From Ferrimonas marina (lineage in GTDB: Bacteria; Pseudomonadota; Gammaproteobacteria; Enterobacterales; Shewanellaceae), in assembly GCF_900129905.1 (NCBI RefSeq), contig NZ_FQXG01000002.1, forward strand, positions 310,001 through 374,000: a DNA stretch of 64,000 bases, given 5' to 3'. The stretch's first letter is position 1; each line of letters opens with the position of its first letter. The position numbers were made by a program, and so were the translations under genes. The notes under the pieces were generated by a model. The model was not told where the DNA came from. It saw nothing but the letters and a program-made list of their open reading frames with translations, and did no database searches. This document shows positions 33,565 through 35,862 of the stretch, in pieces.

Positions 33565-33592
33565 GAGGCCACGCGTTAGCGTGGCCTCGTAT
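33565..33592 (+). terminator. Hairpin after the small lipoprotein gene
   Basis: GAGGCCACGC (33565-33574), GTTA, GCGTGGCCTC (33579-33588), then GTATTTT. Confidence 0.8.
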
Positions 33593-33620: not shown

Positions 33621-33737
33621 TTACGCCAGCAGCTTCAGCCAGGTCAGGGTGGCCGGCAGGGTGGGGATCAACAACACCGCCAGCAGGCCCAGCAGATGAA
33701 ACAGGTTAAAGGGTTCTTTGAATTCTTTGTCGGCCAT
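33621..33737 (-). CDS. 38-residue single-pass membrane protein
   Basis: A complete very short gene: MADKEFKEPFNLFHLLG opens it, then a hydrophobic helix (LLAVLLIPTLPATL) and the end TWLKLLA, TAA. The soluble-charged start, one hydrophobic span and aromatic/Lys end are typical of small membrane proteins. GGGAG lies about nine bases before ATG 33737. A CRP-like site lies 39 bases upstream. It follows hvfC by 98 bases on the same strand, but that gap could hold its own promoter. Function unknown. Confidence 0.65.
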   Translation of the reverse strand: MADKEFKEPFNLFHLLGLLAVLLIPTLPATLTWLKLLA

Positions 33738-33835: not shown

Positions 33836-34570
33836 CTAACCATGCCGACGGACGATCCCCAGTTGCGCCATCTGCAGCAGGATCTGCCCTGCCCCCTGCG
33901 CCACCACCTCCGGCGCCAGCTCCGGCAGCGCCTCGGTCATGGTTTCCGCCAGGGCCTGGGCGCTGCTACCCGGCGCCTCCCGCAGCAACTCCAGCAGCCG
34001 CGCCGTCATGCCATTGAGCTCGGTGAAGGCCACCTCGTCCTCCACATCCCGGTAGACCAGCAGGAAGGTGGGGTGGGGCTCAACCTCGGGGCAGTCACTG
34101 CCCAGCCGATGCACCGGGTAACCGTACTGGCCCAATGCCGAGGCACGGTAGAGCGCCAACGGCTCGGTCAGCACCTGCTCCGCTTCGGTCAACAGGGGCT
34201 GATCGGTGATCTCCTCGCCGGTGTCCACCTGCAGCTCCAGGTACTCGTAGTGGGCCAGGGCCAGCTCCCAGGGTCGCAGCTGCGGCTCATTGGCGAGGAA
34301 GGCCAGAAACTCTTTGGCGATGTCGACAAACAGCGGCGAGTGGCAATCGTGCTCGGCAAAGAAGCGACGCAGTCGCTGCTGCCAACGCTCAGGCTCGGTC
34401 AGGCTGCGCAGTACCGGGAAGCCGCTATCGACAAAGCCGCTGACGTTGTTGAACATCAGGTCCCGGTAGATCTGCATCCGCCGTGCCTCCAGGCCCGCCG
34501 GTGGCTCACCCGCTTCGGGGGCGCGGATATGGGCCATAAAGTCGGCCTGCAGCTGGGTAAAGTCGCTCAT
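33836..34570 (-). CDS. hvfC: HvfC/BufC-type RiPP partner protein (DUF2063)
   Basis: A 244-residue protein of the DUF2063 family. The N-terminal domain starts FTQLQADFMAHIR and contains RRMQIYRDLMFNNVSGFVDSGFPVL (about 30-54), here recognised from IYRDLMFNN and GFPVL. HvfC-type proteins bind the RiPP precursor and are required with the MNIO enzyme for its modification. ATG 34570 overlaps the hvfB stop as ATGA, so the two subunits are translationally coupled. Confidence 0.88.
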   Translation of the reverse strand: MSDFTQLQADFMAHIRAPEAGEPPAGLEARRMQIYRDLMFNNVSGFVDSGFPVLRSLTEPERWQQRLRRFFAEHDCHSPLFVDIAKEFLAFLANEPQLRPWELALAHYEYLELQVDTGEEITDQPLLTEAEQVLTEPLALYRASALGQYGYPVHRLGSDCPEVEPHPTFLLVYRDVEDEVAFTELNGMTARLLELLREAPGSSAQALAETMTEALPELAPEVVAQGAGQILLQMAQLGIVRRHG

Positions 34571-35409
34571 GCCAGCGCCCTCCCCGCCCGGGCTGGCGCA
34601 GCCTGCTGGATCTGAACAATCTGCTCCACCTCGGCCATCAGTACCGGCATCGACGGCAGGTTGAAATCCCGCTCCAGCAAGGTGGGGTGCACACCATGAT
34701 GGGCATAGGTTTGGCCCAGCAGTTGCCAGACCGGATCGATCACATCGGCACCGTGGGTGTCGACGATAAGATCCTCCGCCTCCTGGTAATGCCCGGCGAT
34801 GTGCATGTAGCGGATCCGCTCCGTCGGCAGGCCCTGCATAAAGGCCACCGGATCGTAGCGGTGATTGACGCTGTTGACGTAGATGTTGTTGACGTCCAGC
34901 AGCAGTTCGCAATCCGCCCGGCTCAGTACCTCATTGATAAAGGTCAGCTCATCCATCTCGGCACCGGGCATGGCGTAGTAGGAGACATTTTCCAGTACCA
35001 GCCGCCGACCGAGGATCTCCTGCACCCGCTGCACCCGCTCGACCACATGGCCGACCGCCGCTTCGGTAAAGGGGATCGGCATCAGGTCATACATGTGTGC
35101 ATTGCCGGAGCAGTAGGAGAGGTGCTCGGAGTAGATGGGGATCTGGTGCTCATCGAGGAAGCGCTTGAGTTGACGCACAAAGGCTTCATCCAACGGCGCC
35201 GGTGCGCCGATGGAGAGCGACAGACCGTGGCAGACAAAGGGGACCCGCTCGGTCAGGGCACGAAATTGGCGCTTCAACCTGGGGTTGACCCGCAGCCAGT
35301 TCTCCGGCGCCACCTCCATAAAGCCCACCGATGCCGGGATCAGCCCTGAAGCCAACTCCGCCACCATCTCACGCCGCAGGCCAACGCCTGCTCCCGTTAC
35401 TGCCGCCAT
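34567..35409 (-). CDS. hvfB: HvfB/BufB-type MNIO enzyme (DUF692)
   Basis: A 280-residue DUF692 protein, a multinuclear non-haem iron oxygenase with a TIM-barrel fold. GLRREM and FMEVAPENW (about 30-38) open it; likely iron ligands lie in FVCHGLSLSIG, IYSEHLSY, LENVSYY, LLDVNNIYVNSVNH and MHIAGHYQ. The family converts Cys in RiPP precursors to oxazolone-thioamide or thiooxazole groups. GGAG precedes ATG 35409. Terminator hairpin 35437-35454 separates it from the precursor gene. Confidence 0.92.
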   Translation of the reverse strand: MAAVTGAGVGLRREMVAELASGLIPASVGFMEVAPENWLRVNPRLKRQFRALTERVPFVCHGLSLSIGAPAPLDEAFVRQLKRFLDEHQIPIYSEHLSYCSGNAHMYDLMPIPFTEAAVGHVVERVQRVQEILGRRLVLENVSYYAMPGAEMDELTFINEVLSRADCELLLDVNNIYVNSVNHRYDPVAFMQGLPTERIRYMHIAGHYQEAEDLIVDTHGADVIDPVWQLLGQTYAHHGVHPTLLERDFNLPSMPVLMAEVEQIVQIQQAAPARAGRALA

Positions 35410-35431
35410 GCCCACTCTCCATGCTTACAAC

Positions 35432-35454
35432 AAAAAGGCTGGCCGAAGCCAGCC
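35432..35454 (-). terminator. Terminator/attenuator between hvfA and hvfB
   Basis: Minus strand GGCTGGC (35454-35448), TTCG, GCCAGCC (35443-35437), then five Ts. It should make hvfA mRNA exceed hvfBC mRNA. Confidence 0.88.
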
Positions 35455-35478
35455 TGTTTCACGCCTGCTCAGGGGTGA

Positions 35479-35862
35479 TTAGCTTGCGCCACCACATTTG
35501 CCTTCGCCGCACTTGCCTTCTTTACCCTTGGCTTCGCCGCCACATTTGCCTTCGCCGCACTTGCCTTCTTTACCCTTGGCTTCGCCGCCGCATTTGCCTT
35601 CGCCGCACTTGCCTTCTTTACCCTTGGCTTCGCCGCCGCATTTGCCTTCGCCGCACTTACCTTCTTTACCCTTGGCTTCGCCGCCGCATTTGCCTTCACC
35701 ACACTTACCTTCACCGGCTTTGTCGCCCATGGTGGTGGAAACCTGATAGCCAGTGGCCATCTCGCTCATGGCAAAGGGGTTGGCTTGTGCAGTGGCCAGT
35801 GTACCACCAACAACCAGGGCGCCCAGGGCAACGGCAACAGAGGTTTTCTTTGCAGTTTTCAT
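35479..35862 (-). CDS. hvfA: HvfA-type RiPP precursor with ten EGKCG motifs
   Basis: A 127-residue exported precursor. Residues 1-28 are a signal peptide (MKTAKKTSVAVALGALVVGG to AQA), then a leader NPFAMSEMATGYQV, then five units of EGKCGEGKCGGEAKGK type, giving ten EGKCG motifs and ten Cys, the only Cys in the protein. In Haemophilus HvfA and related bufferins such Cys are modified by the MNIO enzyme and bind copper; here this is inference from family. AAGGAT precedes ATG 35862. The DNA is a 48-bp tandem repeat, so copy number may vary. Confidence 0.9.
   Translation of the reverse strand: MKTAKKTSVAVALGALVVGGTLATAQANPFAMSEMATGYQVSTTMGDKAGEGKCGEGKCGGEAKGKEGKCGEGKCGGEAKGKEGKCGEGKCGGEAKGKEGKCGEGKCGGEAKGKEGKCGEGKCGGAS

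Follow-up and report, generated by a model that had tools for sequence, protein, structure and literature searches.

An intact hvfABC locus in Ferrimonas marina and an HvfX-family gene elsewhere in its genome

The hvfABC locus

The window is a 64,000-nucleotide stretch of the Ferrimonas marina assembly GCF_900129905.1 (contig NZ_FQXG01000002.1, positions 310,001 to 374,000). It contains three minus-strand genes in the order hvfA, hvfB, hvfC. From the hvfC stop to the hvfA ATG they span exactly 33836-35862, the interval in which the initial annotation had placed a precursor with ten EGKCG motifs followed by a DUF692 MNIO enzyme and a DUF2063 partner, and this arrangement is borne out on the minus strand. 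The hvfA gene (35479..35862; ATG at 35862, stop at 35479) encodes a 127-residue precursor, hvfB (34567..35409; ATG at 35409, alternative GTG start at 35415) an MNIO (DUF692) maturase, and hvfC (33836..34570) a DUF2063/PME1 partner with an NGO1945_C domain. All three frames are intact and an ATGA overlap joins the hvfC ATG to the hvfB stop. A scan for sigma-70-like promoters found 0, with 0.8 expected.

The ten EGKCG motifs of HvfA hold all ten of its Cys residues and are preceded by a putative N-terminal signal, MKTAKKTSVAVALGALVVGGTLATAQA, and by an NPF...GYQ segment, NPFAMSEMATGYQV. By eye, the N-terminus looks Sec-type, with a basic start, a hydrophobic stretch and an AQA site, and it is similar across alignment A2, which consists of the window's HvfA and 15 precursors picked from the 62 related precursor loci discussed below. 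The PF and GY residues are invariant in these 16 precursors, the EGKCG motifs are also kept, and all 16 match NF050137 (KCGExKCG_twice) with E <= 0.001; HvfA itself scores 86.4 bits on this model (cut-off 19.5). It scores 69.1 bits on the stricter HvfA equivalog model NF050188, against a cut-off of 95, and has no Pfam match, DUF2282 included. TRF places a 48-bp tandem repeat on the minus strand at 35482..35712 (4.8 copies, 96% matches), each 16-residue unit of which carries two EGKCG motifs. A chance repeat is ruled out by the exact motifs, the 48-bp repeat and the conservation among relatives. The spacing of the motif pairs differs among the relatives' precursors, and repeats of 17 residues have been described (PMC12452194).

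It had been suggested that ten motifs is a large number, and the comparison with relatives does not support this. The best 80 of 543 related loci were used, some of whose stretches stop close to the gene; 18 of the 80 were left out because they have no plus-strand frame with two EGKCG motifs (two had one). The precursors at the other 62 have 2-16 motifs with a median of 8, a range in which ten is not an outlier; at least ten are present in 23 of the 62 loci, and 15 exceed ten. Among the ten closest loci the number of motifs runs from 6 to 16, where the lowest value, from L008, is too low owing to unknown bases within its repeat. Antoine et al. have described roughly 2,000 proteins of this kind that range from 31 to 506 residues, with 58 Cys in the longest (PMC12452194).

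HvfB matches PF05114 with 353 bits and NF003818 with 433 bits (cut-off 360), and its nearest solved structure by sequence is PDB 3bww (E 4.7e-68). Studies on H. influenzae HvfB have shown that Ala variants of N175, D242 and H244 are inactive (PMC13419390). The F. marina protein has a DVNN motif at 172-175 and a DTH motif at 217-219; mapped through these motifs and related sequences rather than the H. influenzae protein itself, N175 corresponds to N174 or N175, D242 to D217 and H244 to H219. The DVNN and DTHG motifs are kept in all seven aligned HvfB sequences. HvfC matches PF09836 (91 bits), PF22106 (85 bits) and NF050145 (266 bits, cut-off 142), with PDB 3dee as its nearest solved structure by sequence (E 1.2e-15). 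The assignment to the HvfABC family made in the initial annotation thus holds, supported by the family matches of HvfB, HvfC and the EGKCG domain. By these matches the cluster belongs to the HvfA/oxazolin (EGKCG captophorin) RiPP family, a claim that is restricted to the broader EGKCG family, and the locus is, to judge by its sequence, an intact and unremarkable example of a known set of three genes for making a copper-binding peptide. Nine of the ten best HvfB-matching loci are Ferrimonas records. An hvf locus with 76% HvfB identity that lies amid the Ferrimonas ones comes from a record titled Marinobacter nauticus (L005, NZ_JAHVJZ010000004.1), which is possibly mislabelled.

Elements between and beyond the genes

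The gap between hvfA and hvfB contains a terminator-like element on the minus strand (35436..35455), a stem-loop with an 8 bp stem and a 4-base loop that is followed by a T-run. A simple scan with mononucleotide shuffles detected comparable elements in 12 of the 57 related hvfA-hvfB gaps that passed its filters, where 0.8 would be expected; five of the 62 precursor loci did not pass, and many other gaps were short. Going by record titles, the 12 gaps belong to Ferrimonas, Paraferrimonas, Shewanella, Pseudoalteromonas and Marinifaba. The hairpin may act as a partial terminator or attenuator, yielding more precursor than enzyme.

A 38-residue ORF with a single membrane helix lies on the minus strand 98 nt after hvfC (33624-33737), and a two-way terminator-like hairpin is located past both (33565..33588). 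The ORF has a family motif, FK[DE]P[FY]N, and appears to be a conserved microprotein (alignment A1). Fifteen members of its family were searched; Pfam gave no match, and no more than four had NCBIfam matches, all of them weak (best E 0.044). Two genome samples were used here and for HvfX, 146 genomes from the family and 197 from the order, with 14 genomes common to both. The 38-residue family is found in 69 of the 197 order genomes; the G181 match among them lies within a long frame and is probably spurious. In an incomplete genome (L094:3151-3810, minus strand) the gene that precedes the ORF resembles, by eye, a ChrR-type anti-sigma factor.

The HvfX partner

The initial annotation had reported that a DoxX-type partner, HvfD, is not present. 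The available text of PMC13419390 contains the name HvfD 0 times and calls the protein HvfX, the name used here. The absence is correct for the cluster, and no DoxX match was found on the window's contig when the genome was searched with PF07681. It is not correct for the genome, which has two DoxX genes, both on other contigs. One, at G000:C18:77792-78304, is an HvfX-family gene that scores 242 bits on NF050144 (cut-off 80); the other scores 41 bits on this model and is therefore not HvfX.

It had also been proposed that the partner be sought elsewhere in related genomes, where HvfX proves to be present and mostly unlinked. In the family sample HvfB is over its cut-off in 141 genomes, HvfX in 137 and both in 136. 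The two genes are unlinked (separated by over 5 kb or located on separate contigs) in 133 of these 136 genomes and linked in three, with the reservation that many genomes are drafts, in which genes on separate contigs may still be linked. The closest spacing among unlinked family pairs that share a contig is 43.7 kb. The HvfX copies of G043, G143 and G102, three of the 137 in the family sample, are broken. Five family genomes have no HvfB over the cut-off and one of them has HvfX (G059, where hvfB lies in two frames). In the order sample HvfX is found in 53 of the 55 HvfB genomes, five of them linked, against 8 of the 142 others; these co-occurrence counts, like those for the family, are raw and uncorrected for relatedness. 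HvfX is not over its cut-off in 5 of the 141 HvfB genomes of the family and 2 of the 55 of the order. The eight order genomes with HvfX and no HvfB over the cut-off include five from one family, two (G190 and G253) in which HvfX adjoins a sub-cut-off HvfB-like gene, and one borderline case (G303), whose score reaches 80.6 bits only together with its neighbours. In the family sample, G091 and G133 each contain an additional HvfB-like gene below the cut-off that adjoins an HvfX. Four genomes from the same genus as F. marina (G018, G023, G031 and G035) have a single MNIO match each and all four have HvfX, so its presence in them is independent of a bufferin cluster. An unlinked HvfX is thus the rule among the relatives, and the one in F. 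marina presumably serves the hvfABC pathway.

The surroundings of hvfX were viewed at 13 hand-picked loci (L083, L126-L137). The recurrent setting of the unlinked gene is a kinase, a DUF6279 lipoprotein, hvfX and a nitroreductase (L083:519-2025 and L126-L137). By eye, a DUF6279-like lipoprotein ORF lies upstream of hvfX in 9 of the 13 loci. A nitroreductase-like ORF directly follows hvfX in 10 of the 13 and comes after two intervening genes in L126, while the L083 and L136 stretches show none. The proteins run against Pfam were over the cut-off in every case (three of three for DUF6279, two of two for nitroreductase). Two loci from genomes that lack HvfB over the cut-off (L141 and L142) also have a nitroreductase-like ORF after HvfX, and in F. 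marina itself an Ada-like ORF follows hvfX.

Among the titles listed in literature searches on HvfX, on DoxX/MNIO/bufferin and on Ferrimonas/oxazolin/captophorin, none dealt with a trans-encoded HvfX. The genome counts in PMC12452194 cover the precursor, MNIO and PME1 genes, and the table available from that paper gives no DoxX count. The odds seem about even that HvfABC of the Ferrimonas type and of other gammaproteobacteria depends on HvfX in trans, encoded in the separate conserved neighbourhood, so that cluster-based mining wrongly scores DoxX as missing.

Proposed function and alternatives

In relatives, HvfBC or FonBC convert each EGKCG Cys to a 5-thiooxazole, and an earlier oxazolone-thioamide assignment has been revised to this structure (PMC13097082, PMC13419390). 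The initial annotation had allowed either product; the thiooxazole stands and the oxazolone-thioamide has been superseded. Copper binding has been demonstrated by mass spectrometry for fontiphorin and gonophorin (PMC13097082) and for bulbicupramide (PMC12538549). A copper-protective role has been argued for bufferins (PMC12452194) and for captophorins (PMC13097082). The gene content, the family membership, the conserved catalytic motifs, the number of EGKCG motifs and the HvfX-family gene on another contig are observed directly in F. marina, and by analogy the same chemistry as in the relatives is expected at this locus. HvfC would bind the HvfA precursor, and in the cytosol HvfB would oxidise the cysteines of the ten Lys-Cys-Gly sites, giving 5-thiooxazoles. 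The modified peptide would then be exported by Sec and would buffer periplasmic copper by binding Cu(I). The probability that the product is such an HvfA/oxazolin-type RiPP, with 5-thiooxazoles made by HvfBC, Sec export and a periplasmic Cu(I)-buffering role, is put at roughly 0.9.

The role of the product could be a different one. One alternative is that the peptide, as a metal or redox buffer, acts mainly outside copper tolerance, for example on other metals, on sulfur or in oxidative stress, a possibility for which the DoxX-type HvfX is a clue. The Microbulbifer relative, which has the same repeats, showed slight, non-robust copper protection and its authors hesitate to assign a protective role (PMC12538549), and the nitroreductase-like ORF that directly follows the unlinked HvfX in most of the loci viewed (confirmed by Pfam for two) points in the same direction. 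The copper binding of fontiphorin, gonophorin and bulbicupramide argues against this explanation, which is possible but rather unlikely. The lack of a DoxX match on its contig would fit a degenerating or inactive cluster without an essential membrane partner, but this reading is very improbable given three intact frames, conserved catalytic motifs, an HvfX elsewhere in the genome and the same unlinked layout in nearly all family genomes that have both genes.

It is just as improbable that the 38-residue membrane protein encoded after hvfC is the product of a fourth operon gene and takes the place of HvfX. The ORF is present in 19 of the best 80 of 543 loci, with no HvfX match in those 19 stretches, and in 132 of the 146 family genomes. 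However, 39 of the 69 order genomes that carry it have no HvfB over the cut-off, and it is missing from 25 of the 55 HvfB genomes of the order sample. In 16 of 20 order-sample stretches no hvf gene is seen and the ORF precedes apt-dnaX, ybaN-like-apt, ybaN-like or carA (names by eye). The ORF was rejected as an hvf gene because it occurs without HvfB and before these other genes.

A periplasmic Cu(I) buffer of the oxazolin type thus remains the preferred reading. The significance of the cluster itself is small. The co-occurring unlinked HvfX is a useful addition, as it suggests that DoxX belongs to the pathway even where clusters lack it, and such genomes allow the role of HvfX to be tested apart from hvfABC.

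Comparison with known systems

Bufferin 1, a DUF2282 protein, resembles the locus in its MNIO, its DUF2063-type partner and its Sec signal, which is putative in HvfA. It differs in that HvfA has no DUF2282 match and HvfB falls under the BufB cut-off (268 bits against 310). The F. marina genome has a second MNIO cluster on contig C6 (L002:1176-3050), with a DUF2282 bufferin precursor and a DUF2063 partner, whose BufB-like MNIO scores 275.6 bits against the same cut-off. Fontiphorin from Fontimonas and bulbicupramide from Microbulbifer have EGKCG repeats and an MNIO with a DUF2063/PME1 partner, as here, but FonA has seven sites (PMC13097082) and MmrA five to eight Cys (PMC12538549) compared with ten in HvfA. 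Oxazolin (HvfABC-HvfX) from nontypeable Haemophilus influenzae shares the paired EGKCG motifs, the MNIO with a DUF2063/RRE partner, the conserved site-3 motifs and the signal peptide, which in F. marina is putative. It has six modified Cys residues where F. marina has ten motifs, and its HvfX is encoded inside the operon (PMC13419390), whereas in F. marina HvfX is encoded on another contig.
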